Assembly: GCA_033032175.1 (NCBI GenBank)
Contig: JAVKPJ010000048.1
Span: 34,272-98,271 of the forward strand
Direction of reading: 5' to 3'
Source: Saturnia japonica
Taxonomy: Eukaryota > Arthropoda > Insecta > Lepidoptera > Saturniidae
DNA length: 64,000 nucleotides
Numbering within the stretch: position 1 is the stretch's first letter; each line of letters starts with the position of its first letter. The notes beneath the pieces are model-generated. The model was not told where the DNA came from. It saw nothing but the letters and a program-made list of their open reading frames with translations, and did not search any database. Positions 15,801 through 63,400 of this stretch are shown in pieces. Made by a program: the position numbers and the translations under genes.

Positions 15801-15826
15801 AGTCGTGTTATTTTTAAAAGAACTAC

Positions 15827-15942
15827 GCAGAATTCTGCCCCCCCCCAGAAGACGCGGGGCAGCCCGAGCTAGGCTCGGGGAGGGATTCTCCAGCTCCTGA
15901 GGAGCTGGTACCCTCCTGGGGTAATGATTTTTTAAATTTTGC
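15827..15942 (-). other. Structured 5' unit of E6, single copy
   Basis: Outer stem from GCAGAATT and AATTTTGC (one mismatch on RNA), then CCCCAG/CTGGGG, GAGGG/CCCTC, a variable hairpin CCAGCTCC-TGA-GGAGCTGG, and a hairpin near 15861-15879 (CCCGAGC/GCTCGGG). Contains the C9 run (15838-15846) and ends at the ATG 15948. Confidence 0.75.
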
Positions 15943-16185
15943 GTCCATATTAACTCCCTTAACCGTCAAGTTTGCGGTACGCCTGCCGGGACCGGTATAA
16001 AAGTTACCGATCCCGCCAGCCGCTGTCCGGAACTGGGCCCTTGGGGCTCAAATTGAGCCCTCATCGGCCCCAGCCCGGTACTGGGTGCGCCGCGCACATG
16101 CCACACCCAGGAGCTTTTAATGGCCCTCCAGCCAATACCCCTCCACAGTCCCCTCTGATAATCAGAGGGATACCGGGAGGAGTTT

Positions 16186-16261
16186 GTCAGGTATCAGCCG
16201 CCGACCAGACTGGTCGACGTTGCCCGGGGTGCACCACGAGGAGGTTCCTGACACGCACCCC
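16186..16261 (-). ncRNA. HDV-like self-cleaving ribozyme at the 5' end of E6
   Basis: P1 GGGGTGC/GCACCCC (perfect 7 bp, starting at the first base of the element), P2 GTCAGG/CCTGAC, P3 ACC/GGT, the J1.1/4 motif GGGCAAC, P4 CGACCA-GTC-TGGTCG, J4/2 GGCTGAT with the catalytic C in a C-N-R-A setting. P1 and P4 differ from E9 but stay paired. It would free the 5' end from a read-through transcript. Confidence 0.88.
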
Positions 16262-17908: not shown

Positions 17909-19867
17909 TCAAGGAGGTTCTGGTGCGGATGGTGCCTTCCCTTTACCTGAAGAGTTTGGCCTGCATCCGGCTCCCCCCATGTAATGTGCCGCCGACTTTC
18001 CTGCGTCAGCACAAACGGCGCAATGCAGTGCCTCTGCCTCACAATCTCGTGCCCTGTGACCAGGTTTACCGCAGCGGAAGCAGAGCACTCCCCTGTCAAC
18101 TGCTGACGGGCATAAGGGCCGAGTGTGGCCTAGACCCATGCACTTGAAACAGCGCATTGGCTTGTATTCAAGCACATGAACCCGGGCCGCGCTCCAACCG
18201 ACAAGGAGGCGCCCAGCCTCCGTCAGGGTCCTAGCCGCGGCTACGGGCACAGACAAATGTATCGCACCCAGGCCTCCTCTAAAATTGCGAATTTCGCCAG
18301 CCCTTATATGGGCTGGCTGGCATCCGCCCTTTAACGCCGTGGCGGCAACAACCTCATCTCTGGTCACAGAGTCATCCAAGCCGACGATGCGGACGCTAAC
18401 CCTCTTAACAGGCCGGTTGATCAAGGCAACGTCCGCCAACGCCGCCTGGAGACTCTGCGCCAGTCTGTCGGCTTGCTCCGGGCCTTGGGAGCCAGGAATT
18501 TCGAAGATTCTTGCTCCCGTTTTAGTCTGACGGAACGAGAGCCTATCAATTCCCATCGACGTCAGATTTACAGCCTCTCTAGCCATCAGTAGAGCCGTTT
18601 TGTAGCTCATCCCCTGAGCCACTGCCTGGGGCTGCAGTGTCATGACCACTGCAGCCGCACGCGGGCTCGGGGGGAGCTTCACCTTGGACTTCCGAGGTGC
18701 ACCCTTCTGAGGAGTGGAAGCTGCCTTCGCAGACGGTACCACCTTCCTCTTCTTATTCCTTTTCTTTTTGCGACGGGATACTTCGGTCCACGTCGCTTCG
18801 GCATTTTGCGCCGTGGTTGGAGTCGTATCCAGGACCACTCTAGGGACCGACTCTTGGAATGGCGCTGCCCCAGAGGTCGCAGCACAATGTGCAGGTGCGG
18901 GTTTAGCCGGTTTCTTCTTGGCACCAGCGGGCTTACACTTTGGCCCCCCTACAGGCCCAGCTTTCTCCAGCCTCCTATCCACGGCCAAGGATGGACGAAC
19001 CACCTCTGCAGGGGGAAGACGATCATCCAAGCGGGCGGTAATCATCTCACCGAGAGATACCCGAAGGGAATGTTCCATGTTGTCCATACGGACCATCATC
19101 GCATCCAGCAACGCCTGAGGAACGATTTCCTGCTCCCGGTGAGGGACCTCCGGCACCACCTGCACTGGCGCAGCCTTTACCTGGCCACGCAGAGCGGCGA
19201 GTTCCACTCTCATCTCGGTCGCCTCTTCGCGTAGCTTACGCATCTCGCGCCGGAGGATAAGCGTTTCCTGCTCTACCGTGCGCTTGAGCGCTGTAGCTGT
19301 GACCTCCTCCAGGGTCCTGGCCGCCTCCTTTAGTTTTTTAATAGAAGTACCCTTGAGGTTGCCAGATGTCTTGCACACCTCAAGGATATTTTTAACTCTG
19401 CTGGTAGCCAGAGCCCTCAGTCGCTCTGGATCAAGGGTCTCTATGTCCAACGGCGGCTCCTCGTCCACCTCCTGATGAGCATCACCGCACTGGGTGCTTC
19501 CAGAGGGAATAGGCCCAGATAACTCGTCTACGGATGCGGGGACGCTCTTCGCCCTGGAAGAACTGCCCAAGTCACGTGCCTTACCACGCCGAGCCGTTGT
19601 AATTTTACAGGGAGAGACTTCCACAACATCATCATCGTGTGCATCTTCCAAATGCAACCGCTTTCTCCCTTCAGCCCCCAATGCCGTTAAACTACTGGAG
19701 CTATTAGACCAGTGCTTGACTGTAAATCGGTCAAGCGACTGATCTCGCTCCAGGACCACAACGGGTCTATCAATTAACCGTTTTTCCTTAGCCAAGGTCG
19801 TCGTTTTAGTGGAATCAGTCGTCAGTTTACTAGCCAGTGTCGTCGTGTGTTTTCTCGAATCTTGCAA
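17909..19867 (-). CDS. E8 ORF1: Gag-like protein of the Gag-only family
   Basis: 652 codons from a TTG at 19867, without an in-frame ATG near the start. Parts: two TTTLA repeats, PVVVLERDQSLDRFTV, NLKGTSIKKLKEAARTL, a coiled coil (LRREMRKLREEATEMRVEL), PRAAAVVMTLQPQA, VSVRIVGLDDSV, and knuckles CFKCMGLGHTRPLC, CFRCGKPGHRARDC and CAVCADAGKSAAHY. The upstream ATG at 19977 (MDSAKFKSKLPQEG) is in another frame; the C-run between them is seven (19875-19881) and a run of eight would put both in one frame. ORF1 is open and intact. Probable role as in E6: RNA binding and telomere delivery with ORF2 supplied in trans. Confidence 0.85.
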   Translation of the reverse strand: MQDSRKHTTTLASKLTTDSTKTTTLAKEKRLIDRPVVVLERDQSLDRFTVKHWSNSSSSLTALGAEGRKRLHLEDAHDDDVVEVSPCKITTARRGKARDLGSSSRAKSVPASVDELSGPIPSGSTQCGDAHQEVDEEPPLDIETLDPERLRALATSRVKNILEVCKTSGNLKGTSIKKLKEAARTLEEVTATALKRTVEQETLILRREMRKLREEATEMRVELAALRGQVKAAPVQVVPEVPHREQEIVPQALLDAMMVRMDNMEHSLRVSLGEMITARLDDRLPPAEVVRPSLAVDRRLEKAGPVGGPKCKPAGAKKKPAKPAPAHCAATSGAAPFQESVPRVVLDTTPTTAQNAEATWTEVSRRKKKRNKKRKVVPSAKAASTPQKGAPRKSKVKLPPSPRAAAVVMTLQPQAVAQGMSYKTALLMAREAVNLTSMGIDRLSFRQTKTGARIFEIPGSQGPEQADRLAQSLQAALADVALINRPVKRVSVRIVGLDDSVTRDEVVAATALKGGCQPAHIRAGEIRNFRGGLGAIHLSVPVAAARTLTEAGRLLVGWSAARVHVLEYKPMRCFKCMGLGHTRPLCPSAVDRGVLCFRCGKPGHRARDCEAEALHCAVCADAGKSAAHYMGGAGCRPNSSGKGKAPSAPEPP

Positions 19868-19968
19868 AATTTTGCCCCCCCAGAAGACGCGGGGCAGCCC
19901 GAGCTAGGCTCGGGGAGGGATTCTCCCTTTCGGGTACCCTCCTGGGGTAGTTTACTCTTAAATTTTGC
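19864..19968 (-). other. Structured 5' unit of E8, single copy
   Basis: Outer stem GCAAAATT/AATTTTGC, CCCCAG/CTGGGG, GAGGG/CCCTC, short variable hairpin CCC-TTTC-GGG, hairpin CCCGAGC/GCTCGGG, C7 run. Confidence 0.75.
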
Positions 19969-20213
19969 CGAATCCATCGCTATTTTCTTTAACGTCAGTT
20001 TGCGGTACGCCTGCCGGGACCGGTATAAAAGCTACCGATCCCGCCAGCCGCTGTCCGGAACTGGGCCCTTGGGGCTCAAATTGAGCCCTCATTGGCCCCA
20101 GCCCGGTACTGGGTGCGCCGCGCACATGCCACACCCAGGAGCTTTTAATGGCCCTCCAGCCACTACCCCTCCACAGTCCCCTCTGATAATCAGAGGGATA
20201 CCGGGAGGAGTTT

Positions 20214-20289
20214 GTCAGGTATCAGCCGCCGACCAGACTGGTCGACGTTGCCCGGGGTGCACCACGAGGAGGTTCCTGACACGCACCCC
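20214..20289 (-). ncRNA. HDV-like self-cleaving ribozyme at the 5' end of E8
   Basis: Same sequence and pairing as in E6 (P1 GGGGTGC/GCACCCC, P2 GTCAGG/CCTGAC, P4 CGACCA/TGGTCG, GGCTGAT). Four bases of unknown origin lie 5' of the cleavage point. Confidence 0.87.
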
Positions 20290-20331: not shown

Positions 20332-20351
20332 TTTTTTTTTTTTTTTTTTTA

Positions 20352-26868: not shown

Positions 26869-29800
26869 TTAGGGAGGTAGTGCATGATGAGCACCCCTTC
26901 CCCTCCTCCTTCTTCCGCGTCCTCTCTCTCGACGCGCTGTCGGAGCTGCGGGATCTCTTTCCCTGGCTCTTTCTGTCTCTTCCTTTACAGAGAGAACAGC
27001 CTCGCAGAATGTCAAAACGGCGCTCCATGATCTCTCACTGCTAACCATTTCTCGGATGAGGGTCGGTAGAGAAAGATCATTACCAACTATCGCAGTGAGG
27101 TCACCACGTTGTTCCGCCCATGCAGGGCAGTGCTCCAAAGTATGTTCTGCCGTGTCCACGTCACACCCGTCACAATGGAAGCATCTAGGTGTAAGTTCTT
27201 TCCTTGCTATTTGGTGCAGATACTTACCAAAACAGCCGTGGCCACTAAGCATCTGCACCAGCCGGAATGTAAGTGCTCCATGTGTCCTTTGCACCCATTC
27301 CGTAAGTACTGGGCGAATTGCCTCGATAGTCTTGACGCCGACACTTGTTGAAGAGAGTCTCTCCTTCCACGTCATCAGCACTACTCGCTGGATGTGAGAC
27401 TTTTGTGCTTCTTCCTCCCTGGGCGGAAAGATCTCGCCGCGAGCGATTTTCTCTGCACGCCACGTATACATGGCGGCATATGCATGCGCCACCAGTTCCC
27501 ACGGTGGGGTTCTTGCCAACAGGCACGCTGCCTCATATGATATAGTGCGGTAGCCACGCACCACCCTAACAGCCATAACTTTTTGCAGATTCCGCAAAAC
27601 TGCAGAATTACCAGCCGTCAGGGCTTCATGCCACACCGGCGCTCCGTACAATAACATTGACCGGATAACTCCCAAATACAGAGACCGGCAGCCATCACCA
27701 GCACCACCGAGGTTGGGAAGGAGACCTGCCAGTGCTGAGGCACTCCTTAAGACTTTTGGAGCCATTTGACGAAAATGCTCACAAAAGGTCCAGCGACTGT
27801 CCAAGATTAATCCTAAGTACTTCATAGTGGATCCAACTTCGATTTGAACTCCACCAATGATCAGATGTGTGCCACGCGGAGGTGCTCTACGTGAGCCGTG
27901 AAAGCATATGGCTTCCGTCTTATTAAGAGCGACCTCTAACCCTAGTAGCCTGATTCTCCCCACAACTTGTGCAACACTCGCAGTTGCCAAACGAATTGCA
28001 TCTCTCAGGGTGTTTCCGCGAGCCGTAACGAGAGTGTCATCAGCATAGCATGTCACTGCTGCGCCAGGCAGGAGAGCACCTCGCAGCACCCAGTCATACC
28101 CGATGTTCCACAGGAGCGGACCGAGGACTGACCCCTGTTGAACACCGCACGACATCTCCCTTTGGTGGGCGCTTCCATCCTGCCCGACGCATGTGACACG
28201 CCTATCCTCTAAGTAGGACTGGACGATCTTACACAGATAATGGGGTACCCCGTGATATCTCAACGCTTCCATTATGCATTCCCAGGGCAAGCTGTTAAAG
28301 GCGTTGGCTATATCCAAAGACACAGCCAACAGCACTCCGCCCTGGGAAACAACTTCGTCCGAGAGGGTCTTAACTCGTAAAATCGCGTCAACCGTCGACC
28401 GACCCTGTCGGAAACCAAACTGTACCTCTGATAGGTCGGGTCCAATGCGGGTCAGGTGTTTAACGAGACGCCGCGAGATGACACGCTCCAAAAGTTTTCC
28501 TGCCTCATCAAGGAGGACAATAGGCCGATAGGCAGACGGCGAGTCCGCAGGACGACCCTGTTTCCTTAGAAGGACGAGACGGCCTGTCTTCCACTGAGGG
28601 GGAAACTGACCTGACTGTAAACAAGCACTAAAAAGCCTCCTCAACCTGTCCCCTAAAAATTCCAGTGCAAGAACCCAGGCGCGACCTGGGATTCCATCGG
28701 GCCCCGGAGCAGTATTTTTAGCACGGAGCCGTTTCACGGCCTCGCCCAATTCCACCTCAGATACTGGAGGCACCTCATCGTAATTATCCTGTCCATTCGG
28801 TATGGATGGAGCTAAAAAAGGAGGCGTATGCTCTGACCTTTGCGGGAAGAGCACAGATAGAATGGCCTCTAAAAGTTGCGGCTGGAGACTCTGCGTGATT
28901 GGGGGAGCCCAAGGGCGCAAGAAGCTCAACACCATTCGATAAGGGCGTCCCCACGGATCACTGTCCAGAGTCTCCAGAAGGTCCTCCCTTGCTTGAGTTT
29001 TGGCTCTCCTAATCGAGATCTGCAGTGCTTTTTTGGCCTCTCTATATGCTTCGTGTAATTGTGCCTCAACCGTGACATCCCGTCCTCGACGCAACCTACG
29101 GTATCGGGTGTATCGGCGCCTTACAGCCACGCATACAGCCCGCAACCGTGCAATCTCAGTAGACCACCAATATACGCGACGTCTTGCTGGTTGATGTCGG
29201 ACCCGTGGCATGGCAGCATCGGAAATGCGCGTCATCGTATCCCTGAACCAACGTGTTTCCTCGACAATGTCCACCGGTCCATCAGGAATTGGTGGCCAGG
29301 ACGCAACTATAGAGGCTTCAGCCAGCAAATCACTATTAAGCCCCTTTACAGCCCATCTAGGTGATGATGACAAATCTGAATTGAAATTTCGGTTCAATAC
29401 AGAGAGACTGATGTTAAACCTAATATATTGGTGGTCGGACAAAGACTCTGCCTTTTCCACAACTCTCCAATCTTGAGTTCGTTGAGCGACGACAGATGTA
29501 CCAAAAGTGAGATCCACAATGGATCCACCCTGTTGTCGAACGCAGGTGTTTACAGACCCTCGATTCATTATGGAGAGGCCAGTTTCTACTGCCCATTCTT
29601 CTAAGGCCCTACCACGTATATCCGTGACGGGAGATCCCCACGCCGAAGACTTAGCATTGAAGTCCCCCGCCACCAATATGGGACAGGGCAAAGTCCGTGT
29701 AATGAAGGTTCCTACGCGGTCCAGGAACTCTTCAAACTCCACAAGAGTCCTGTTTGGAGAGAAGTAAACACTAATGAGAACTAGTTCTCCCCACCGTACC

Positions 29801-30033
29801 GCGACATATCCAGTATCCCTCTTGAGGATGGTCATAATTGGAGACCCCACAGTATTTACAGATACGATGGCTGCCGCACCTGTTGTATCCCCGACCCAGT
29901 TATCCCTTGAAGGGACAAAGTACGGTTCAGAGACAATCGCTACCTGTATCGACCATTCGGCCATGGTTTGAACAAGAAGATCCTGTGCCACGGCCGAGTG
30001 GTTGATATTTACCTGCAAAAACTTATGGGCCAT
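26869..30033 (-). CDS. E10 ORF2: endonuclease-reverse transcriptase (beta)
   Basis: 1054 aa from the ATG at 30033 (MAHKFLQVNINH). The ORF1 stop is eight bases upstream (TAG, then ATG in TAGTGATCAGTATG); a GTG overlaps the stop and could also serve. Endonuclease motifs SEPYFVPSRDNW, GDFNAKSSAWGS and SDHQYIRFNI; RT motifs APGPDGIPGR, FRQGRSTVDA, SLDIANAF, CYADDTLVTARG; finger CFHCDGCDVDTAEHTLEHC. Oddity: the RT motif that is VPQGSVLGP in E9 reads VQQGSVLGP here, a proline to glutamine change in a very constant site, which may weaken the enzyme. Otherwise open and complete. Confidence 0.93.
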   Translation of the reverse strand: MAHKFLQVNINHSAVAQDLLVQTMAEWSIQVAIVSEPYFVPSRDNWVGDTTGAAAIVSVNTVGSPIMTILKRDTGYVAVRWGELVLISVYFSPNRTLVEFEEFLDRVGTFITRTLPCPILVAGDFNAKSSAWGSPVTDIRGRALEEWAVETGLSIMNRGSVNTCVRQQGGSIVDLTFGTSVVAQRTQDWRVVEKAESLSDHQYIRFNISLSVLNRNFNSDLSSSPRWAVKGLNSDLLAEASIVASWPPIPDGPVDIVEETRWFRDTMTRISDAAMPRVRHQPARRRVYWWSTEIARLRAVCVAVRRRYTRYRRLRRGRDVTVEAQLHEAYREAKKALQISIRRAKTQAREDLLETLDSDPWGRPYRMVLSFLRPWAPPITQSLQPQLLEAILSVLFPQRSEHTPPFLAPSIPNGQDNYDEVPPVSEVELGEAVKRLRAKNTAPGPDGIPGRAWVLALEFLGDRLRRLFSACLQSGQFPPQWKTGRLVLLRKQGRPADSPSAYRPIVLLDEAGKLLERVISRRLVKHLTRIGPDLSEVQFGFRQGRSTVDAILRVKTLSDEVVSQGGVLLAVSLDIANAFNSLPWECIMEALRYHGVPHYLCKIVQSYLEDRRVTCVGQDGSAHQREMSCGVQQGSVLGPLLWNIGYDWVLRGALLPGAAVTCYADDTLVTARGNTLRDAIRLATASVAQVVGRIRLLGLEVALNKTEAICFHGSRRAPPRGTHLIIGGVQIEVGSTMKYLGLILDSRWTFCEHFRQMAPKVLRSASALAGLLPNLGGAGDGCRSLYLGVIRSMLLYGAPVWHEALTAGNSAVLRNLQKVMAVRVVRGYRTISYEAACLLARTPPWELVAHAYAAMYTWRAEKIARGEIFPPREEEAQKSHIQRVVLMTWKERLSSTSVGVKTIEAIRPVLTEWVQRTHGALTFRLVQMLSGHGCFGKYLHQIARKELTPRCFHCDGCDVDTAEHTLEHCPAWAEQRGDLTAIVGNDLSLPTLIREMVSSERSWSAVLTFCEAVLSVKEETERARERDPAAPTARRERGRGRRRRGRGAHHALPP

Positions 30034-30041
30034 ACTGATCA

Positions 30042-32201
30042 CTAGGTTTCCATATCTCCTCCTACCCTGGACATCATAGACGTACCAGGAGCAGCCTCAG
30101 CTGCAGATTCCTTGGGTGGCTGCGATCTTTTGACCGTTACCTTCCTCATATTCGTTGACGGAGCGCATGGCCTGCTCCCTAAACGATGATTAGCCGGACG
30201 TTTTGCGTCAGCACACACCGAGCAATGCGGAGTAGCCGAGCAGCTTAAGGCTTTATGGCCTGCCTCTCCACAGCGGAAGCACTGTCCACTGCGGTCCACT
30301 ATTGAAGTGCACTTCTGCATAACGTGTCCAACCTCCAAGCAGCGGAAACATCTCGCAACTCTTGGCTCTAGCAGCCTAACTCGTACCGCAGCCCAGCCAA
30401 TTAACAGCCTGCCCTCTTGAGCCACCTTCTTTGCTGCCTCCACTGGGCAGCGCAACCATGCGGTTCCAGTACCATGTGGAGCCCGGCGTATTTCTCCCAC
30501 TTTAATCTGATTCACGGTACAGCCGCCCTTTGTCGCCACTATTGCCGCTATATCTTCCTTGGTCACAGAGTCATCCAGGCCCATAATACGAAGATCAGTA
30601 CATTTACTAGGCCTGGACACTTCAACCATCCCTTCTCCAAAGACCTGGACAAAGGTCGCTGTCAGCTTTTCAGCAACCCGATCTGCTTTTTCAGCGCTCG
30701 TTACTCCGGGCACCTCAAGTTTACGAGCGCCGGTAGCAGTCTCTTTAATATTAAGGTACGGAATGTCCAAACTGGCAACATCCACCTTGTCTTTAGCCAC
30801 TGTGATAACCTTTTTATAATCTATACCCCTATCCCCTGCACCCGGCTGAAGAGTCAACACAATTACCGAGGATCGTGGGATAGACAATTTGGCTGGAGTC
30901 AGTCTAGATTTTTGTGCCCTTCTCTGATCTAAACGTTTCTTGGCGCCCTTCTTCACTACCGTTGTCCACATTTCTTCCTGTACTATAGGTGCCGAAGGAG
31001 GTAAATGCATTATCGGTGGCGGCTCACTTGTTTTAGCTGTCGTAGCAGGCTTTTTCTTTATCTTCTTTGCCTGTTTAATTCCGGCTGGAGCATCAGCAGA
31101 CAATTTAGGCACTCTTGCTCCTGGCGCTGCATCATAAGCAGTCTTTTGCCGGTCTGCAGCTAATGGAGGGCGTAAACGTTCTTCGGGAAGAAGTCTATCC
31201 TCTATTCCCTCAAATCGAGCGTTCATAATGCTCCTAATTTGACTCATTTCCGAGCGCAACGTCTCCTCGAATATAGAACGAACTTCCGAGAGGACATCGG
31301 ATTGAGTACTATCCTGAAGCCGCTTAGGCAGCGGTGGGAATTCCTCTCTTACTACTCTCTTTGGAAGAGAACTAGATTCTCTCACACCAGTTTCGGACAC
31401 GCTAAGCAGAGACGCCGCAGATCTTTCAGCGCGTAGTCCTTCGAAATTCTTTTTCATCTCAGCGAGCTCTCTTCGGAGCTCAGCTATTTCCGCCTGTTGG
31501 CGTTCGAGATCTGCCCTCATGCGGGCGTTGTCGGCCTCTAGGCGGGAAGTCTCATCTGAGGCGGTTCGGTGCCGATATTCCTCCAATACCGCCGTAAGAG
31601 ATTTTGCCGCATCCTTAAGGGAACGCTGATAGGTGCCCTTCAAGTTCCCTGAATTTTTTGCAACCTCGAGAATGACCCCGATGTCACATTTCACAATCTC
31701 TCTCAGATCGCGGGTCTCATCTTCTTTGGGATTTTTCGACCACGTGGATGCACGCAGCCGTCTTGCCTCGGAAGCCATTTCTTCCATGTCTTTTTCCGCC
31801 CTTAACCGAAGCTCCTCCCTTTCAGAACGGATGTACATCTCTTTCGCCGCAGCTCGGCCAATGTATTCCCCGGTGGTCGGGGGACGGCCCCTACCTCTTT
31901 TTGGTGCGTTTATGCAACCCTTCAACGAAACTTCGCCAGAGTCAGAAAGAGAGCCAAAGTCTGAAGCAGCACCATCATCATCTAATTCAGAGCCCTTTCG
32001 CTTATTTTTCCTTTGGAAGAATTTACCCTGAGAAGGAGATTCTCTACCATCAACGCTATCCACCGTCTCCATTGTGTTTGTACTGCCGTCGCTGCTCATA
32101 GACAGACGGTCAATTGACTCGCATCTTTCTAAGAGCACAATCGGTATTGCATCGGTTGTCCTGTTGGATGCCAAAGTCGTCGTTACATCTTCACCTCGCA
32201 A
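30042..32201 (-). CDS. E10 ORF1: Gag-like protein with repeated N-terminal modules
   Basis: 719 codons from a TTG at 32201; the first in-frame ATG is about 26 codons in (MSSDGS) and would drop the conserved IPIVLLERCESIDRLS. A second open frame (32655-32191) begins at the ATG 32553, runs through the outer unit, an inter-unit TTTLACTRT segment and the second ATG 32322 (MDSAKLKNKLPQEG), and stops just past a C9 run at 32209-32217. Eight bases there would fuse it to ORF1. Main part: KRGRGRPPTTGEY, NLKGTYQRSLKDAAKSL, coiled coil, SSVIVLTLQPGA core, TDLRIMGLDDSV, knuckles CFRCLEVGHVMQKC and CFRCGEAGHKALSC, then CSVCADAKRPANH. Confidence 0.85.
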   Translation of the reverse strand: MRGEDVTTTLASNRTTDAIPIVLLERCESIDRLSMSSDGSTNTMETVDSVDGRESPSQGKFFQRKNKRKGSELDDDGAASDFGSLSDSGEVSLKGCINAPKRGRGRPPTTGEYIGRAAAKEMYIRSEREELRLRAEKDMEEMASEARRLRASTWSKNPKEDETRDLREIVKCDIGVILEVAKNSGNLKGTYQRSLKDAAKSLTAVLEEYRHRTASDETSRLEADNARMRADLERQQAEIAELRRELAEMKKNFEGLRAERSAASLLSVSETGVRESSSLPKRVVREEFPPLPKRLQDSTQSDVLSEVRSIFEETLRSEMSQIRSIMNARFEGIEDRLLPEERLRPPLAADRQKTAYDAAPGARVPKLSADAPAGIKQAKKIKKKPATTAKTSEPPPIMHLPPSAPIVQEEMWTTVVKKGAKKRLDQRRAQKSRLTPAKLSIPRSSVIVLTLQPGAGDRGIDYKKVITVAKDKVDVASLDIPYLNIKETATGARKLEVPGVTSAEKADRVAEKLTATFVQVFGEGMVEVSRPSKCTDLRIMGLDDSVTKEDIAAIVATKGGCTVNQIKVGEIRRAPHGTGTAWLRCPVEAAKKVAQEGRLLIGWAAVRVRLLEPRVARCFRCLEVGHVMQKCTSIVDRSGQCFRCGEAGHKALSCSATPHCSVCADAKRPANHRLGSRPCAPSTNMRKVTVKRSQPPKESAAEAAPGTSMMSRVGGDMET

Positions 32202-32313
32202 AATTGTGCCCCCCCCCAGAAAACGCGGGGCAGTCCGGGCTAGGCCCGGAGAGGGATTCTCCTGCTCCGTTGGAGCCGGTACCCTCCTGGGGTAGTTTAT
32301 TTTTTAATTTTGC
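32198..32313 (-). other. Structured 5' unit of E10, copy next to ORF1
   Basis: Outer stem GCAAAATT/AATTTTGC, CCCCAG/CTGGGG, GAGGG/CCCTC, variable hairpin GCTCC-GTT-GGAGC, second hairpin from GGGCT and GGCCC, C9 run at 32209-32217. Confidence 0.75.
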
Positions 32314-32432
32314 ACTATCCATTATTCCATCATTGATTTCAGCGGTCCGTGTGCATGCCAGAGTCGTCGTGGAATCTTCTTGCTCGGAGATCCATTTGCG
32401 TGCCAATGTCATCGTATTTAAGTTCAGTTCAT

Positions 32433-32546
32433 GTACAAATCTGCCCCCCCCAGAAAACGTGGGGCAGCCCGGGTTAAGCCCGGGGAGGGATTCTCCAACT
32501 CCTGAGGAGCTGGTACCCTCCTGGGGTAGTACTATTATATTTGTAC
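32433..32546 (-). other. Structured 5' unit of E10, outer copy
   Basis: Outer stem changed to GTACAAAT/ATTTGTAC, still fully complementary; variable hairpin ACTCC-TGA-GGAG; hairpin CCCGGG-TTAAG-CCCGGG; C8 run at 32444-32451. Confidence 0.77.
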
Positions 32547-32917
32547 CGTCCATCCCTTTTAACTCCTCCTCCAGTTCGCAGTGCGCCTGCCAGGACCGAT
32601 ATGAAGACAACCAGTCCCGCCAGCCGCTCCCCGGAATTGGGCCCTTGGGACTCAACTTGAGCCCTCATCGGCCCCAACCCGGTACTGAGTGTGCTGCTCA
32701 CACGCCACACCCAGGAGTGCTTATCGGCTCTCCAGCCTAGATCCGTAGTGTTCAGCGAGACAGGGTCACCTCGAGAAGGATGTGGCTCTTCACCACGCAC
32801 TACGGTCTTGAGGTGGCAGGCTAAGGCTCTCTCCGAAAGGAAAGAGCTGTATTGCGCCTGTGGGTCCACCCCCTGCAGATCAGAGATACAAGTACCTCAT
32901 CACGCCTGCTCGACCCC

Positions 32918-32936
32918 AACCTAACCTAACCTAACC
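32918..32936 (-). repeat. Telomere repeats between E10 and E11
   Basis: AACCTAACCTAACCTAACC. Confidence 0.97.
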
Positions 32937-32957
32937 TTTTTTTTTTTTTTTTTTTTA

Positions 32958-39081: not shown

Positions 39082-39159
39082 GTCAGGTATTAGCCGTCGG
39101 CCGTGAAGCGGCCGCCGTTGCCCGGGATGCACCACGCGGAGGTTCCTGACTCGCACCCC
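39082..39159 (-). ncRNA. HDV-like self-cleaving ribozyme at the 5' end of E11
   Basis: Matches the E9 ribozyme: P1 GGGGTGC/GCATCCC, P2 GTCAGG/CCTGAC, P4 GGCCG/CGGCC, GGCTAAT. Confidence 0.87.
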
Positions 39160-44645: not shown

Positions 44646-45068
44646 TTCTGATCCCACGAGAATGGGGGAAGTAAACGGTCCACCCAGGCAGTGCCCCCTG
44701 TGCCTGGGTAAGCCTAGCGTAACCCGTCAGAGAGTCGGCCGGTTCCCTGACGGGGGTCGCACTCGTGACTGGTCTCCCACCAGCCACGCATCCCCTCGTG
44801 GTGCGCCGCCACTTGGGATTAGGGTAATTTTTTATAGAGGTTTTCTTCCTCGCGGTCCGGGCGGTGAAGCCAAGACCCTCGGTCCCATTCGAAGCCGCGA
44901 GACGTGACCACGACACTCCGAAATGGGATTACGAAATCGACGACGACAAGCCGGACAAGGTGCCAAACCTGCCCGCCCGACGGCAGTGTAAGTGCACGCC
45001 GAACCCGCCAACACACCACGTTCTTCGATACCTCTGACTAACAGAGCGACGGTAAACGTAGCCCCCCC

Positions 45069-45146
45069 GTCAGGTATTAGCCGTCGGCCGTGAAGCGACC
45101 GCCGTTGCCCGGGATGCACCACGCGGAGGTTCCTGACTCGCACCCC
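45069..45146 (-). ncRNA. HDV-like self-cleaving ribozyme at the 5' end of E12
   Basis: As in E9, with P4 GGTCG-CTTCA-CGGCC, where one pair has become G-U on the sense RNA but is kept. Confidence 0.86.
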
Positions 45147-50819: not shown

Positions 50820-51241
50820 TTCTAATCCCACGAGAATGGGGGAAACAACCGGTCCACCCAGGCAGTGCCCCCTGTGCCTGGGTAAGCCTAGCGTAACCCG
50901 TCAGAGAGTCGGCCGGTTCTCTGACGGGGGTCGCACTCGTGACTGGTCTCCCACCAGCCACGCATCCCCTCGCGGTGCGCCGCCGCTTGGGATTAGGGTA
51001 ATTTTTTATAGAGGTTTTCTTCCTCGCGGTCCAGGCGGTGAAGCCAAGACCCTCGGTCCCATACGAAGCCGCGAGACGTGACCACGACACTCCGATGGGA
51101 TTACGAGATCGACGGCGACAAGCCGAACAAGTTGTCAGGTCTGTCCGCCCGACGGCAGTGTGAGTACTCGCCGAGCCCGCCAACACACCACGTTCTTCGA
51201 CCCCTCTGACTAGCAGAGGAACGGTAAACGTAGCCCCCCCC

Positions 51242-51319
51242 GTCAGGTATTAGCCGTCGGCCGTGAAGCGGCCGCCGTTGCCCGGGATGCACCACGCGGA
51301 GGTTCCTGACTCGCACCCC
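51242..51319 (-). ncRNA. HDV-like self-cleaving ribozyme at the 5' end of E13
   Basis: Same as E9: P1 GGGGTGC/GCATCCC, P2 GTCAGG/CCTGAC, P4 GGCCG/CGGCC, GGCTAAT. Confidence 0.87.
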
Positions 51320-53819: not shown

Positions 53820-56800
53820 TTACGGCGGCTGTAGGTCATCCCTGACCCGTCGCCGCCGTACGGTTCGTCGACCGCGGGAGGGGAGCTGTGATGCCTGCTC
53901 CCCTCCCTCTCCGCCGCCTCCTTAGTGAGCATAACGTCCTCGCAGAATGAGGCGACGGAGTTCCATCCGGTCTCGCTCTCGACCATGGACTTCACAACAG
54001 TCGAGAGCGAGAGATCCAGGCCAATCCCCGCAACGAGCTCGCGGCGTGGCGTTTCCCAGGCGGGACATTCTTCGAGGGTGTGCTGCGCGGTGTCCCTCGC
54101 ACAACCACAATGGTGGCACCCTGCTGTCGGTTCCCGGCCTATACGACACAGGTAGCTCCCGAAACAGCCGTGTCCCGAGAGCACCTGTGTCAGCCGGAAT
54201 GTCAGGGTGCCGTGCCGCCTGGTTAGCCATTCGGCCAATACGGGCCGAACGGCTTCCACTGTTGCCACTCCCGAGCTCGGTCGCTCAAGTCGTCGGCGCC
54301 ACTCGTCCACCACTAGGACCTGGTGGAGCTGTGACCTCAGCGCCTCGATTTCCCGAGGCGCGAGTCGTAAACATTGCTCCAGCGCCTCCACGCGTCGAAG
54401 ATACAGAGACGCGTGGGCTCTCGCCTCCAGGTCCCAGGGTGGGGATCCGGCTAATAGGGAGGCCGCCTCGAAAGAAATCGTGCGGTACCCTCGGACGGCT
54501 CTGATGGCCATCGCCCGCTGCGGTTTCCGCAATTGGGCGATATTTTTAGCCGTCAAGCTATACGCCCACACGGGGGCCCCATACAGGACTATGGACCGCA
54601 CGATCCCTAAATACAGCTTCCGGCAAGTGGAATTAGGCCCCCCCAGGTTGGGTAGCAGACGAGCTAATGCACCCGCTGCTCCCATGAGACGGGGGGCCAA
54701 GTGCCGGAAGTGCTCTTCGAAGGTCCATCGGCTGTCGAGGACGAGGCCGAGATACCTCATTGTCGACTCGACACCGATGGACACGCCTCCCACGACTATT
54801 TGAGCTCCTTGAGGCGGCGCATTCCGAGGTCCATGGAAAAACAGGGCCTCGGATTTACGGGCGCCACCTCCAGCCCCAGACGCCGAATCCTACCGACGAC
54901 TTGAGCGACGCCGGCCGTAGCCAGCATCGTCGCATTGCGGTGCGTCTTCCCCCGGGCTAACACTAGCGTGTCGTCAGCGTAACAGACAACGCTGACGCCT
55001 CGGAGGAGCGCACCGCGCAACACCCAGTCGTATCCGATGTTCCAGAGAAGGGGCCCTAACACTGACCCCTGGGGAACACCGGATACGACATCTCGCCGAC
55101 TCATCCCTCGCTGACCCGGGAAGGTCACGTACCTCTCACTGAGGTACGCCCCGACTATACGGCGGAGGTAGGACGGCACTCCATGAAACCGGAGTGCCTC
55201 TCTAATTGTAGCCCAGGGCAAGGTGTTAAAAGCGTTGGCGATGTCAAGAGACACCGCCAGAACCACCTCGCCCCGAGCAATTGCTTCCTCCCTGGATCTT
55301 CACACGCATTATGGCGTCAATCGTGGGCGCCCCTGGCGGAAACCAAACTGGTTATCCGCCAGATCCGGCCCTATCGTTGTTAAGTGTCGGACGAGGCGGA
55401 CTGCGATTATTCGCTCGCAGAGCTTCGCCACATCGTCCAACAACACTATGGGCCGGTATGCGGACGGAGAGTCCGCAGGGCGCCCCTCTTTCTTCAGCAG
55501 GACTAGTTTGCCGGTTTTCCCACGCGGAAACCGGCCCTGTTGAAGACACACTGTGAAATCCCCAAAAGTCGGGGCTCGAGGGCCTCTAGAGCCAGGACCC
55601 ATGCACGACCAGGTATGCCGTCCGGTCCTGGGGCGGTGTTTTTTGCTTGCATGCGTTTCACCGCCGCCCTCACTCTTGGGTCACCTCGGGTGCATCGTCG
55701 TCGCCCTCCGCTTTGGGCATGGCTGCGAACGGAGCCATCGTGGGAGGTGTATGCTCTGCCCCCGAAGGAAACAGAGGGACTACATCTTGGAGGAGCTCTG
55801 GCTGGAGACTCTTTGTTATCGGGGGAGCCCATTGGCGTAATTTGCCACGTACCATTCGGTACGGGCGCCCCCATGGATTCCGGTTGAGCGTCTCCAGCTG
55901 CTCCTCCCTGGCCAGAGCTTTCGCCTGCTCAATGGCCTTTTTGAGCGCCAACTTGGCCGCTCTGTACCCTTCGTAGAGTTCTATCTCTCTGGCGGACGCG
56001 TCCTGCGTGCGACCCCGCCTGCGCCGCTCTCTGGTGTACTGGCGCCGAACCGCCACACACGCGGCACGCAATTGCGCGATTTCGGCGGTCCACCAGTACA
56101 CTTGACGCCTGGCGGGCATCGGCCCCTTTATTCGGGGCATCGCCGCGTCGCAGACACGCGTCATATCTGCGCGCAGTGACTCCGCCTCTTCGTTGACATC
56201 AGCAAGCCTGTCGGGCGGTTCACCGGAAACCCAGGCCTGCATGACGGCAGCTTCCAGAAGTACCTCACGGTCTAGGCGCTTCAATGCCCAACGCGGACCG
56301 TCCTCTACGGAGGTCCTACGGGCCGGTACATCCGAGGCCGGGTGGAGATGTCGAACCGTATATATCGGTGGTCCGACAACGTCTCCACTCCCTCAAGGAC
56401 TGTCCAGCCCCGAACTCGGCGTGCTAAAGCAGGGCTTGCAAACGTAATATCCACTATAGAACCGCCCTGCTGTCGCACGCACGTGTTAACGGACCCCGAT
56501 TGAGGACAAGTAGGCCCATTAATATAGCCCACTCCTCAAGAGCCTCACCCCTAGCGTCCGTTGACGGGGAACCCCAAGCTGTTGATTTAGCGTTAAAGTC
56601 CCCGAGGACCAGGACGGGGTGAGGATGGATACGACCGACAACGATTTGCATCTCCCCGAGGAATCCCTCAAAGTCAGCGAGACTTCTACTTGGGGGCATA
56701 TACACCCCTACTACGACCATGTCACCGAGATGTGCTGCTACGTACCCCCGACCCCTCGAGATGTTGGAGAAAGGCGGGGCACCAGCAGCGGCCTGGGACA

Positions 56801-56971: not shown

Positions 56972-59260
56972 TTATTGATGACACTCCATTTCGCCTTCAT
57001 GGGAAGTCGCCGGCGTCTCAGTGACAACCGATGACGTCGAGGGCTGGGCCGGGTTCTTACCCCTGCTCCTGCCCCTATTTTCTTCGCCCCGTTTTTGGTT
57101 GAGGGCGCAGGCTTACCACAATCCCTGCTACCCACTCGATGGGCAGCAGGACTGCCTGAAGCTGCGCAAACCGCACAGTGTGGCTCCGCACTGCACTCAA
57201 CGGCTTTATGCCCCGGTTGACTGCACCGGAAGCATAGCTGACTACAGTCAACCTGGCAGGTGCATTTATTGCCCAGATGTCCGGCTTGTAAGCATCTAAA
57301 GCATTTTCGAGACCGAGGCTCCAAGAGCTTAATTTGTGCCGACACCCACCCAATCAGAAGTCGTCGGCCGTCCGTGATTTTTTCGCTGCCGCCACAGGAC
57401 AAGAAACTACAGCCGTACAGAGCCCCCTTAGCCCTGGACGTACTCCATTCGTTTTCACCTGCTCCCGGGGACATCCGCCAGTCTCGGCCACAGCAGCGAT
57501 AACTTCATCTGCTGTGACGGATTCGTCTAGGCCCGAGATACGAATGTCTGCACACCTCATGGGCCTGGATATTTTAATGCCCTCTGCTGGAAGCACCTCT
57601 TTAAATCTGGCTGCCAGGGCATCTGCTTTATCTCCACTGGCGGCACCAGGAATTGGACAAGGTAACCACCGTTCGCTGCTCTCCTCCAACGGATCCCTTC
57701 AATACCCAGGTCAGCCAGCTTGACGTTGGTTTTTATTCCTTGGAGCACCTGCAAGTAGGAAAAACCCTTCTTCTCCGCCTCCGGCTGCAGAGTAACTGAC
57801 ACCGCAGTTGTTCTTGGTGCTCGGAGTTTACGGCCCTTCTCCTTCTTAGGAGTTGACTTCTTCGATTTAGCTGGCTTTTTAGGGCGACCGTTCTTACCAA
57901 CTAGCACCCATTCCCCTTCTACGGTTTAGGCACTACCGGCTGCTCCCTATTTGTGGAAGGAGCTAACGAAGCTGGAATTGCCGTAGCATTGTTAGCCTTT
58001 CCTTGGTTCCTCTTTTTACGTTTTTGACGGCTGACAACGGAGGAGTTGGAAGTTTAGAGGACCGTTCTTCAGGTACGAGTACTGCTTTTGCATTAGCATT
58101 CCTACGATCTGCGGCCAATGGAGGTCGCATCCGCTCCTCCGGCGGGAGCCTGTTCTCCATAGCCTCTAGCCGAGCGAACATTATGTTTTCCATTCGGAGC
58201 ATCGCCTGCTCGAATCTTTCAGCAGAGACTACTTGAGGCGGCTCCATCTGAATCCTCGACTCGCGCGGCTGCGGCAGGGGAGGAAATTCCTCCCTCGCCG
58301 CCTTCTTGCGAGGTGGCACAATCTGCTGCCCGGGACCGTAATGGGCTGTGACGCCTGTGCTTGAGGGTGCAGCTGGCTTATTTGCACTCTCATATCAGCT
58401 AGCTCCTTTCGAAGCTCCCCATCTCCGTTGTTGACGGAGTAAGTCCTCTTTTAGGCGGTCATTGTCCGCTTTTAAGCGAGCCGTTTCACTATTTGTGGTC
58501 CGGCATTGGAGCACTTCCAAGATCTCTTTTAAAGAGTCTGCAGCATGGTTTAAGGCTTTTTGGAAAGTCCCCTTCAGATTGCGGATCTCTTGGCTACTTT
58601 GAGAACCACCTCTACGCTCTTTTTAGCCAATTCGTTCAGGTCAAGAGTAGCCTCCGGTTGATTTGTACCATGGCCCTAGTGGCAACTCGGAGTTGCCTGG
58701 CTTCCTCATCCAGGTCTGCCACCTCTTGCTCCGCACGGAGACGGAGCTCTTCCTGCTCAAGGCGGATTAATTCCTTTTGTGCCACATACTGACCCACATA
58801 TTTACCTGTGGTCGGAGGGCGACCCCTGCCTTTCTTCGCGGGAGTTATACGAGCATCCTTCGTGATATTGTCCGGTCAACGTCAGAACCCGCCTCTGGGG
58901 CAGAACCTTCATCCAAGTTTTTCCCTTTCCGCTTACGGAAAAACTTACTTAAGCAAGGATACTCACTCCCCTCAATGGATTCAACGGTCTCAAAGGTGTC
59001 CGCACTGCAGTTACTACTGTCTGAGAGACATTCAACAGACGCCATTCTTTCAAGAGCCGGCAGCCTTTCCAGTACAACAATTGGTGAAGCAACAGAAGTC
59101 CTTGAGCAAGCCAAAGTCGTCGGAGTAGTTGAGTCTCGCAACAATTCGCCCCCCCAGAAAACGCGGGGCAGCCCGGGCCAAGCCCGGAGAGGGATTCTCC
59201 AGCACGAGTAGTGCTGGTACCCTCCTGGGGTAGTTTACTATTTACTGTTGCACTGTCCAT
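56972..59260 (-). pseudogene. E15 ORF1 (Gag-like), many frameshifts
   Basis: Pieces in at least five frames. The upstream piece (59144-58845) carries SPIVVLERLPALERMASV, as in the other families, with the ATG 59260 (MDSATVNSKLPQEG) in a different frame across a C7 run (59149-59155). Later pieces hold EEFPPLPQP, LEAMENRLPPEERMRPP, TTAVSVTLQPEA, ADIRISGLDESV, and knuckles CFRCLQAGHLGNKC and CFRCSQPGHKAVEC. Ends in TAA two bases before ORF2. Core resembles E9 more than E4, although the 3' half of the element is alpha. Confidence 0.82.
59138..59251 (-). other. Structured 5' unit of E15, copy next to ORF1
   Basis: Outer stem GCAACA/TGTTGC (changed on both sides against E8), CCCCAG/CTGGGG, variable hairpin CCAGCAC-GAGTA-GTGCTGG, C7 run 59149-59155. 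Confidence 0.77.
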
Positions 59261-59321
59261 CATGTTTTCTTCATCGGATACCATTTTCGCGCCAAAGTCA
59301 TCGTGTTTAAATCCAACTCAT

Positions 59322-59426
59322 GCAAAATTTTGCCCCCCCCAGAAAACGTGGGGCAGCCCGGGACAAGCCCGGGGAGGGATTCTCGGTTAAGGTACCCTCC
59401 TGGGGTAGTTCAAATTGTAATTTTGC
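59322..59426 (-). other. Structured 5' unit of E15, middle copy
   Basis: Outer stem GCAAAATT/AATTTTGC, short variable hairpin (GGT/ACC), C8 run 59333-59340. Confidence 0.74.
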
Positions 59427-59560
59427 ACTATCCATGTTAAACGATCGATCAGTAGTCCATTTTCGTGCCATAGTCGTCGGTTTATCCATCAGTTCGACAT
59501 CCAAATCGTTTCCATCAAGAGTCCTTGTACTCGCCAAAGTAGTCGTTGTGTGTAAATTTC

Positions 59561-59665
59561 GCAAAGCTTTGCCCCCCCCAGAAAACGGGGGCAGCCCGAG
59601 ACGTGCTCGGAGAGGGATTCTCCCGTTAGGGTACCCTCCTGGGGTAGTCGATTTTTCAACTTTGC
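59561..59665 (-). other. Structured 5' unit of E15, outer copy
   Basis: Outer stem GCAAAG/CTTTGC (again changed in step), variable hairpin CCC-GTTA-GGG, C8 run 59572-59579. One base is missing after AAAACG relative to the other copies. Confidence 0.75.
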
Positions 59666-60044
59666 GTCCATACTTCCTTACTCCTCTTCCAGTTCGCAGT
59701 ACGCCTGCCGGGCCGGTATGAAAACCACCAGTCCCGCCAGCCGCTGTCCGGAAATGGGCCCTTGGGACTCAACTTGAGCCCTCATCGGCCCCAACCCGGC
59801 ACTGAGTGCGCTGCTCACACGCCACACCCAGGAGTATTTATCGGCTCTCCAGCCTAGATCCGTAGTGTTCAGCGTGACAGGGTCACCTCGAGAAGGATGT
59901 GGTTCTTCACCACGCACTACGGTCTTGAGGTGGCAGGCTAAGGCTCTCTCCGAAAGGAAAGAGCTGTATTGCGCCTGTGGGTCCACCCCCTGCAGATCAG
60001 AGATACAAGTACCTCATCACGCCTGCTCGACCCCCCTCGACCCC

Positions 60045-60059
60045 AAACCTAACCTAACC
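60045..60059 (-). repeat. Telomere repeats between E15 and E16
   Basis: AAACCTAACCTAACC; one extra A at the 5' junction of E15. Confidence 0.96.
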
Positions 60060-60081
60060 TTTTTTTTTTTTTTTTTTTTAT

Positions 60082-60407: not shown

Positions 60408-63400
60408 TTACGGCGGCAGAAGGTCATTCCTGACCCTGCGCCGTCGGGTTCGTCGACCGCGGGAGGGGAGCTCTGACGTCTGCTCCCTCTCCCTCTCCGC
60501 CGCCTCCTTTGCGAGCATGACGTCCTCGCAGAATGAGGCGACGGAGTTCCACCCGCTCTCACTCGCAACCATGGACGAAACGACGGTCGGGAGTGAGAGA
60601 TTGGGCCCTATAGCCGCGATGAGGTCGCGGCGTGACGAGTCCCATGCGGGACAGGCGGCAAGTGTATGCTGCGCGTTGTCGACCGCGCAGCCACAATGAT
60701 GGCACCCAGTTGTTGACTCTCTGCCTATGCGACACAGGTAACTCCCGAAACATCCGTGTCCCGAGAGCACCTGCGTCAGCCGGAAGGTTAGGGTGCCGTG
60801 CCGCCTCCGTACCCATGCCGTCAAATGAGGCCTCACGGCCTCGACGGTCGTCACGCCGGCGCTGGGGTGCTCCAGTCGTCGGTCCCACTCCGCCATGACC
60901 AGGATCTGGTGGAGCTCTGCTCTACGCGCCTCAATCTCACGAGGCGCAGGTCGTATTCCTCTCTCCAACGCCTCGCCGCGCCACCTGTAGAGCGACGCGA
61001 GGGCTCTCGCCTCCAGATCCCATGGCGGAGATCCGGCCAATAGGGAGGCCGCCTCGAAGGAGATCGTGCGATATCCCCGGGCCACTCTGACGGCCATCGC
61101 CCTCTGCGGTTTGCGCAGAGCGGCGATATTTAGGGCCGCCAGGTTTTCTTCAGCCCACACCGGGGCACCGTAAAGGGCCATGGACCGCACGATCCCCATG
61201 TAGAGCCTTCGGCAAGCGGAATTTGGACCCCCAAGTTGGGCAACAGCCGCGCTAACGCGGCCGCAGCGCCATAAGACGGGGGGTCAGCTGCCTGAAGTGC
61301 TCTACAAAGTCCCATCGGCTATCCAGAACGAGTCCAAGATATTTCATATTGGACTGGATGCCGATTGGGACGCCTCCCACGATGATCTGGGACCCTCTCG
61401 GTGGCGCATTCCGAGGCCCAGGAAACACAGAGCCTCAGATTTGTGCAGCGCCACATTTAGTCCCAGACGCCGGATCCGACCGACGACGTGTGCCACCCCA
61501 GCGGTTGCCAATATCGCGGCTTCGCGATGCGACTTAGCTCTCGACGTGACCAGTGTGTCGTCGGCATAACACACGACACTGAGGCCACGGAGGAGCGCAC
61601 CGCGCAACACCCAGTCGTATCCGATGTTCCAGAGAAGGGGGCCCAAAACTGACCCCTGGGGAACACCGGATACGACGTCTCGCCGACACATTCCACTCCG
61701 ACCCGGGAAGACTACGTACCTCTCGCAGAGGTACGCCCCGACTATGCGGCGGAGGTAGGACGGCACTCCGTGAAATCGGAGCGCCTCTCTAATTGTGGCC
61801 CAGGGCAAGGTGTTAAAGGCATTTGCGATGTCTAAAGACACCGCTATCACCACCTCGCCCCGAGCAATGGCCTCCTCCGCCAGACTCCTGACTTGCGCGA
61901 TCGCATCAATCGTGGACGCCCTCTGCGGAAACCGAACTGGTTCTCCGCCAAATCCGGCCCCACGTGCGTTAAGTGGCCGACGAGGCGGTTTGCAATCACT
62001 CTCTCGAAGAGTTTGCCCACCTCGTCGAGCAGCACAATGGGGCGGTACGCGGACGGCGAGTCCCCGGGCGCCCCGGCTTTTGGAGCAGGACTAGACGGCC
62101 GGTTTTCCACTTCGACGGAAACCGGCCCTGCTCCAGACACGCGCTCAGGAGTCCCAATAGTCGGGGCTCGAGGACATCTTGGGCCAGGACCCACGCTCGA
62201 CCAGGCAGGCCGTCGGGCCCTGGGGCGGTGTTTTTGGCCGCGAGGCGTTTCACCGCCGCCCTCAATTCTTCCCGGGTCACGTCGGGCACTTCGTCTCGGT
62301 CCACGTCGGGCTCGGCCGGGGCGGAGCCATGTGGGGAGGTGAAAACTCCTCCCTGGAGGGAAACAGAGCGCTCACACCTCCTCGAGGAACTCTAACTGGA
62401 GACTCTGGGTTACCGGTGGGGCCCATTGGCGAAGTTTGCCACGTACCATCCTGTACGGGCGGCCCCACGGATCCCGATTGAGCGTCTCCAGGAATTCCTC
62501 TCTGGCCAGAGCTTTTGCGCGCTCAATGGCCGTCGGAGGGTGAGCTTAGCTGCTCTGTAACCCTCATGCAGCTCCGCCTCTCCGGGGCTTGCGACCTGCG
62601 AATGACGTCGTCTGCGCCTTATCCTGGTGTACTGGCGGCGCGCTGCTACGCAAAGTGCGCGCAGCTGCGCGATTTCAGCGTTCCACCAGTACACCTGGCG
62701 CTTAGCTGGACGACGCCCAACTCTCGGCATCGCCGCGTCACACATATGCGACACGGGGCTCGCAGTCGCTCCGCCCCATCTTCGACATCGGCAGGCCTCT
62801 CGGGTGTTCCATCCATCACCCAGGCTTGCACGATGGCGGCCTCGAGGAACACCTCGCGATCGAGGCGTCCCAGAGCCCAACGTGGACTGTCCTCCTCAGG
62901 GCCTCTCGGGACCGGTCGTCCCGAGGTCTGGGCGGACACTTCGAACTGTATGTAAAGATGGTCCGAAAGTGTCTCTACCCCCTCCAGGACTCTCCAGTCC
63001 CGAACACGGCGTGCTATTGCAGGGCTTGCGAACGATATGTCCACTATGGATTCGCCCTGCGGTCGCACGCACGTGTTTACGGAGCCCCTATTGAGAACGA
63101 GTAGGCCAGATGTTACGGCCCACTCTTCCAGCACCTCACCCCTTGCGTCCGTGGACGGGGAACCCCAAGCCGTAGATTTTGCATTGAAGTCCCCGAGGAC
63201 TAGGACAGGGTGAGGGTGGCTGCCCGAGACGACAGTGCCCAACTCCACCAAAAGTGCCTCGAAGTCAGCGAGACTCCATCGAGGGGGTGCGTACACCCCC
63301 ACCACCACAATGTCGCCGAGACGTGCCGCCACGTATCCCTGGCCCTCCTTGATGTTAGCGAAGGGCGGGGAACCGGCGGCGGGTCGAGAAATAATGGCAA

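Follow-up and report, generated by a model that had tools for sequence, protein, structure and literature searches.

A structured RNA over the ORF1 start codon of telomere-type LINE retrotransposons in Saturnia japonica, with a possible role in translation initiation

An RNA structure of about 110 bases lies over the coding start of long interspersed nuclear elements (LINEs) in a 64-kb stretch of the genome of the saturniid Saturnia japonica (contig JAVKPJ010000048.1, positions 34,272 to 98,271 of the forward strand), hereafter the window. Telomere-type, SART-like LINE retrotransposons, arrayed on the minus strand, make up much of the window. The structure, which we call the unit, is present in four of them, labelled E6, E8, E10 and E15 as in the initial annotation of this DNA, and its functional (sense) strand is also the minus strand. 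Rather than being free-standing, the unit begins at the start codon of open reading frame 1 (ORF1) and covers approximately the first 40 codons. Selection on its RNA pairing is well supported by compensatory changes in three helices, recurrent double changes, fixed codons, and G-U pairs that can form in the sense RNA only. Computation yields the position of the unit, its in-frame translation, covariation, codon constancy and sense-strand pairing, and its sharing between two LINE lineages. With a confidence a little below even, we propose that it is a conserved cis-acting RNA structure that would act in translation initiation.

With a covariance model trained on 27 copies, seven units are detected across the window (E<1). 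All lie on the minus strand, arranged as 1, 1, 2 and 3 copies per element (Table 1), which bears out the number and arrangement initially annotated; these seven belong to the 27 training rows. The core pattern CCCCAGGAGGGTACC-N{5,45}-GAGAATCCCTC occurs 1463 times (685 + 778) in the genome, which comprises 580 Mb in 402 contigs. The reversed control occurs 0 + 0 times, and chance is therefore excluded. Searches for the core in prokaryote genome contigs and in viral contigs returned 0 and 0 occurrences. The unit matches no family in the Rfam copy searched, either with the E15 stretch up to E=10 or with the window at 0.1. All copies are from one genome and were gathered mainly by the exact core. 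Parsing covered 119 units, of which 3 (L059, L061 and L066) were unparsed and the remainder collapsed to 31 at 95% similarity. The alignment of the unit contains 27 of these 31, with L043, L060, L063 and L064 omitted because they are decayed, partly deleted or carry very long G-runs.

The helices of the unit are, in sense order, P1 (the outer stem), P2 (CCCCAG/CTGGGG), P3 (GGAGGG/CCCTCC), P4 (a variable hairpin), P5 (a CCGRG/CYCGG hairpin) and P6 (TGCCCC/GGGGCA). The P5 hairpin and the candidate helix P6 are additions to the fold that was first drawn. P2 and P6 pair in nearly all of the 27 copies and never change on both sides; they would cross as a possible pseudoknot, for which a run of eight Gs just suffices, four in each helix. 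L069 was dropped as evidence for P6, its 3' arm being deleted. When eight sequences were folded, all beat their shuffles (z of -2.4 to -6.0, with 0 to 3 of 200 shuffles folding equally well). The optimum folds contain P1, P3, P4, P5 and P6 together in six of the eight, and those of L024 and L061 depart from this arrangement.

The arms of P1, P4 and P5 change together. In an arm-swap test (111 units parsed, 28 distinct), each copy's own arms pair better than swapped partners do, with p of ~5e-5 for P1, ~5e-5 for P4 and ~1e-4 for P5, values in which relatedness is uncontrolled. Among the 27 aligned copies, 92.5% of cells pair, compared with 87.3% after shuffling, and 43 cells carry double changes versus 13.6. 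Nine pairs have a double change as against 6.2 in shuffled alignments, a number reached by 12 of 500 shuffles. Sliding one strand by 1 to 3 columns reduces pairing to 38-63%. Explaining the double changes takes at least 25 events on a tree inferred from unpaired columns and at least 18 on one inferred from all columns (sums of per-pair minima), although those in P4 depend on gap placement. G-U pairs are present, for example in 6 of the 27 copies at columns 39-76. Because a G-U pair would be C-A on the other strand, the sense RNA is what pairs.

These results bear out most of what had been claimed for the fold. The four outer stems named in the initial annotation are present as written, and its statement that both arms change together holds with more copies. 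The inner hairpin had been said to pair in nearly every copy; its own arms do pair best, but pairing is weak in some short copies, such as CCTTAACC in 59317-59438. CCCCAG/CTGGGG and most of GAGGG/CCCTC are indeed constant, and for this reason they supply no covariation evidence. The broader proposal of an RNA device is upheld as regards selection for pairing, to which covariation, codon constancy and double changes on trees all contribute. It had overlooked that the unit starts at the ORF1 AUG and is translated.

The AUG lies at the 5' foot of the unit or inside the outer stem; in L039 the stem includes it (ATGTCAAAATT/AATTTTGACAT). Each of the seven units in the window has an in-frame AUG 27 or 30 nucleotides before CCCCAG. 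Across 64 distinct copies, the distance from the A of the AUG to the core is 24, 27 or 30 nucleotides in 59, and the other five have no in-frame AUG within 60 nucleotides. A purine occupies position -3 in 54 of the 59 copies with an AUG. The encoded peptide has the form M...LPQEGT[variable]GESL....GCP.FSGGG, and in relatives its frame enters ORF1.

Where copies are in tandem, they repeat in frame. Among relatives with eight Gs, a single frame passes through one, two or three units, and in L005 (three units) and L051 (two units) it stays open as far as the fetched stretch reaches, for 679 and 593 codons. The G-run is eight long in 31 of the 64 distinct copies, seven in 9 and nine in 6; other lengths and unparsed copies make up the remainder. 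Frame-changing length differences, mostly one-nucleotide insertions or deletions, affect six of the seven window units, in the variable hairpin or within or close to the G-run, and the unit at 32428-32558 reads through. Odd G-run lengths look like homopolymer insertions or deletions in the copies or in the assembly. We also observed runs of 26, 28 and 14 Gs replacing the eight in L063, L064 and L046, the expansion being a multiple of three in L046 and L063.

Conservation within the unit goes beyond its amino acids. For 15 ORF1s (in 10 the frame stays open throughout the fetched stretch, in 5 it stops inside), the downstream ORF1 has a median amino-acid identity of 30% (103 of 105 pairs), and the aligned nucleotides of the unit have a median identity of 85%, including bases fixed by the search pattern. 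With the pattern-chosen codons left out, seven of seven testable unit columns use one codon throughout, whereas across 50 downstream columns the most frequent codon has a mean share of 0.53 (p=1e-5). The GAG and TCG codons of P5 (E and S) switch jointly to GGG and CCG (G and P), which keeps one base pair; this pair is A-U in 16 of the 27 copies, G-C in 9, G-U in 1 and unpaired in 1.

The unit is common to two distant LINE lineages, located at the start of ORF1 in SART-like elements and of an endonuclease ORF in L070. A search with L061 as query gave 12 matches, including L061 itself and several partial ones. Copies of this type lack the SART 5' untranslated region (UTR): a blastn comparison of the 5' regions of L070 and E6 returned two pieces, both within the unit. 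In L070 the frame runs 229 codons from the unit AUG into an endonuclease that is 64% identical to a Dendrolimus protein; in the other L061-type copies examined the frame is broken. Annotated relatives of the L061-type endonuclease number 23 matches, and it is hardly similar to that of E10 (35% over 49 residues). The covariance model, trained without these copies, recovers L070, L073, L071, L072, L061, L074, L059 and L076 with scores from 81 down to 31 bits. In these copies P5 has a long, different arm that is nonetheless paired (CTGGGCGTCCACGCTCAGG with CCTGAGCGTGGATGCCCAG). Inspection by eye indicates that P2 and P6 use separate stretches in L072, likewise in L070 with a P6 of TGCCCTC/GAGGGCA, and that P6 is partly broken in L071, L073 and L076. 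The unit thus keeps its place at the AUG even where a different protein follows.

In the SART-like elements, approximately 145 nucleotides upstream of the unit form a second conserved segment, with 91% mean column identity in 19 elements and three stem-loops, followed by a variable stretch of ~20-25 nucleotides just before the AUG. The alignment of this segment contains 19 of 23 sequences, with L060, L062, L065 and L068 omitted. Pairing occurs in 98.3% of cells versus 96.8% after shuffling, 7 pairs have double changes versus 1.8, and the covariation score is above that of all shuffles; sliding a strand reduces pairing to 29-47%. Each of the four unit-bearing window elements also has two upstream AUGs, which together with the structured 5' UTR would be compatible with an internal ribosome entry site (IRES).

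Hepatitis delta virus (HDV)-like ribozymes are found at the 5' ends of E6 and E8, in both cases matching RF02682 at 38.6 bits, below the gathering score of 44, and in 7 of 16 other loci. Similar matches, also below the gathering score (E of 0.025-0.035, minus strand), occur at the 5' ends of unit-less elements at 26401-26479, 39081-39159, 45068-45146 and 51241-51319. The 5' ends of E10 (32560-32925) and E15 (59690-60046), on the minus strand, differ from those of E6 and E8. An HDV-like layout is conceivable there by eye (GGGTC/GGACCC and GCAGGC/GCCTGC), with no family match for E15. The unit was itself considered as an HDV-like fold, and this was rejected, as it gives no match to the family model of a nested double pseudoknot.

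The position of the unit, its spacing from the AUG and the changing protein behind it point to the start of translation rather than to protein function, and an IRES or start-site element is the leading idea. The unit would form a compact domain with outer stem P1, a branched core and possibly a pseudoknot, and with its core helix fixed 24-30 nucleotides past the AUG it would retain the small ribosomal subunit at the correct start codon or place it there. Such aid would serve a message that has upstream AUGs and, in at least some elements, a 5' end made by an HDV-like ribozyme, which would therefore lack a cap. Tandem units would be in-frame duplications, each of which keeps an AUG. We suggest somewhat more tentatively that the unit may be a portable start module. 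It would then be a probably pseudoknotted RNA domain with its own AUG and first ~40 codons, positioning ribosomes on uncapped, ribozyme-processed LINE RNA, moving between distant LINE lineages before different proteins, and multiplied as in-frame tandem copies.

Several observations weigh against a role in initiation or against parts of the evidence for it. P2, P3 and P6 have no double changes in the 27 copies, a lack that counts against the explanation in the case of P2 and P6. Further pair types number 25 in the unit versus 21.6 after shuffling (reached by 32 of 500 shuffles), a modest excess, and in the 5' UTR 28 versus 27.2 (reached by 173 of 500), little excess. Spacing in steps of three is also expected from the reading frame. 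The HDV-like match is absent in 9 of the 16 other loci at E<=0.05 and from the 5' end of E15 at E<=10, and so a missing cap is not general on this evidence. Finally, several SART-like elements in the same array have no unit, and hence not all of them need it.

The main rival explanation is that the unit is a ribonucleoprotein site, which the element's ORF1 or ORF2 protein would bind for packaging, for choice of its own message or for control of integration. We consider this possible but on balance doubtful. The place of the unit and its overlap with coding sequence are those of the 5' RNA of R2, as described in the passages on that RNA in PMC12203849. The unit and the 5' UTR are common to E10 and E15 and to E6 and E8, which contain ORF1 only, must borrow ORF2, and share approximately the last 90 nucleotides of the 3' UTR. 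Occurrence in such ORF1-only elements favours a binding site. However, a SART-like ORF1 is absent behind the unit of the L070-type LINE, whose endonuclease is hardly similar, so that one conserved protein partner is hard to see. The unit-less elements of the array also argue against this proposal, and a binding site does not require strict spacing from the AUG. In place of selection on the fold, the 5' regions of the elements may have been made alike by recent exchange or gene conversion, which would account for a unit and 5' UTR that are far more alike than the remaining ORF1 and for the presence of the unit in two LINE lineages. Exchange alone does not produce the many paired compensatory changes among copies, which makes this explanation improbable, although exchange may still account for the spread of the unit.

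If selection instead acts on the peptide, LPQEGT...GESL...GCP.FSGGG would be a functional N-terminal motif and the RNA fold a by-product. Length differences in the variable hairpin keep the frame, and the Bombyx mandarina protein LOC114245572 opens with the unit peptide. A search with the unit peptide of P0002 alone found P0002 itself only, and in a motif scan over 25 protein records P0002 alone matched, perhaps because gene models start downstream. Selection on the peptide is unlikely, as codons are fixed beyond the residues they encode, the joint change of E and S to G and P preserves a P5 pair, G-U pairs are kept on the sense strand, and the same motif precedes a different protein in L070. 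The initial annotation had also raised a ribozyme of unknown type and a frameshift signal. The compact fold with its possible pseudoknot, and the HDV-like ribozymes at the 5' ends of some unit-bearing elements, would be in keeping with self-cleavage. This is very unlikely given the lack of an Rfam match and because a cut would sever the AUG from the rest of the ORF1 message; moreover, elements with two and three units keep one frame throughout. A programmed frameshift or slippage at the G-run was suspected because the entry and exit frames of window copies differ where the run is seven or nine long. With eight Gs, the commonest length, the frame of relatives is continuous through one, two or three units, so no frameshift device is needed, and of the explanations considered we give this one the least credence.

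The unit has partial counterparts among known systems. The R2 5' RNA (R2Bm) is described in the passages of PMC12203849 concerned with it as a structured RNA that follows the 5' UTR and occupies the 5' terminus of the ORF, with a conserved pseudoknot and with proposed roles in translation initiation and integration. The unit resembles it in being structured RNA at an ORF 5' terminus that overlaps coding sequence. It differs in belonging to another LINE clade, preceding ORF1 in SART-like elements and being repeated in tandem; the likeness is one of place and structure. In the subgenomic mRNA of Sindbis virus, a coding-region hairpin (DLP or DSH) ~27 nucleotides past the AUG signals the start codon, according to the passages on it in PMC5850377, a distance near that in 59 of the 64 copies. 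That structure is a single hairpin in a capped viral mRNA adapted to vertebrate cells, whereas the unit is branched, lies in insect LINEs and has its outer stem beside the AUG, beginning only 6-9 nucleotides past it. This is nearer than in Sindbis virus and is a further point against the proposed role. HDV-like ribozymes are reported in SART in part of PMC11620745; like the unit, they are structured 5' RNAs of the same elements (E6 and E8), but each is a separate RNA more than 200 nucleotides upstream of the unit. No such structure is described for R1-clade or lepidopteran LINEs in the titles and opening parts of abstracts covered, a body of literature that mostly excludes subscription papers.

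The elements that carry the unit resemble in kind SART1Bm, a telomeric LINE of Bombyx mori. The passages on SART1Bm in PMC7265360 describe insertion in TTAGG, ORF1, ORF2 with endonuclease and reverse transcriptase, a 3' UTR and poly(A); those passages do not mention the unit. Between several window elements the plus strand has (CCTAA)n with poly(T) immediately after it, which corresponds to a poly(A) tail and sense TTAGG telomeric repeats. The host elements are thus inserted in TTAGG, in the sense orientation on the TTAGG strand and with a poly(A) tail. In E10, ORF1 encodes a CCHC knuckle and ORF2 an apurinic/apyrimidinic (AP) endonuclease and a reverse transcriptase (Pfam zf-CCHC, Exo_endo_phos_2 and RVT_1), and the best solved relative of its endonuclease is the TRAS1 ORF2 protein. 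Orientation and the TTAGG target, as in SART, fit a SART-like assignment, which is judged from these features. The TTAGG repeats, the type of element and relatives in moths and butterflies are in line with a lepidopteran host.

E6 (13551-16261) and E8 (17572-20289) are elements of ~2.7 kb with ORF1 only and an HDV-like ribozyme at the 5' end, and the last ~90 nucleotides of their 3' UTR resemble those of ORF2-bearing elements. They are like HeT-A of Drosophila in spirit, which encodes no reverse transcriptase according to the passages on it in PMC5537684. Core spacing near 2.8 kb on contig C1 hints at many more elements of this type. Separately, the Rfam family mir-3389 has ten matches in the window, all antisense to LINE genes and at least seven of them inside ORF2 frames; the family looks to be derived from, or mistaken for, SART-like ORF2.

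Table 1. Features of the window (positions count from its first letter).
Feature	Position	Strand	Evidence and remarks
E15 unit 1	59556..59677	-	113.3 bits; in-frame AUG 59669-59671, 27 nt before CCCCAG, would start ORF1; frame broken by missing base before CGTTTT
E15 unit 2	59317..59438	-	116.7 bits; own AUG 59433-59435; in-frame repeat in relatives
E15 unit 3	59133..59263	-	120 bits; own AUG 59258-59260; ORF1 next; seven Gs, eight in most relatives seen
E10 unit 1	32428..32558	-	116.6 bits; AUG 32551-32553 starts ORF1; outer stem GTACAAAT/ATTTGTAC
E10 unit 2	32193..32325	-	123.4 bits; own AUG 32320-32322; nine Gs, frame broken
E8 single unit	19859..19980	-	122.6 bits; AUG 19975-19977; seven Gs, frame broken
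E6 single unit	15822..15954	-	125.4 bits; AUG 15946-15948; nine Gs, frame broken
Conserved structured 5' UTR segment, E15 (three stem-loops)	59689..59833	-	alignment A3, pair counts
Conserved structured 5' UTR segment, E10	32571..32716	-	alignment A3, pair counts
Conserved structured 5' UTR segment, E8	19996..20140	-	alignment A3, pair counts
Conserved structured 5' UTR segment, E6	15968..16112	-	alignment A3, pair counts
HDV-like ribozyme, E8 5' end	20211..20289	-	RF02682, below gathering score
HDV-like ribozyme, E6 5' end	16183..16261	-	RF02682, below gathering score
E10 ORF1 downstream frame (stop to stop)	30042..32303	-	CCHC zinc knuckle near end
E10 ORF2 (stop to stop)	26869..30096	-	AP-type endonuclease and reverse transcriptase
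CCTAA repeats directly followed by poly(T)	13458-13550, 16264-16298, 20295-20350, 32920-32956, 60047-60079	+	
mir-3389 matches	1301-1369, 7914-7982, 21891-21957, 28090-28156, 34486-34554, 40642-40710, 46739-46805, 52908-52974, 55024-55092, 61611-61679	+	

Two questions become testable here: how ORF1 is translated from ribozyme-processed, presumably uncapped LINE RNA, and by which RNA signal LINE proteins select the message that encodes them. The unit offers for this a compact conserved RNA of clear anatomy, with 1463 exact cores in one genome, natural variants of one, two or three copies, and relatives lacking it within one telomeric array. The unit also illustrates how an RNA fold within coding sequence can be mistaken for a conserved protein motif. 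That two LINE lineages carry it suggests an exchange of 5' control modules among retrotransposons. A portable start module, if the unit is one, would act in translation while being translated itself, and would be inherited as a whole.

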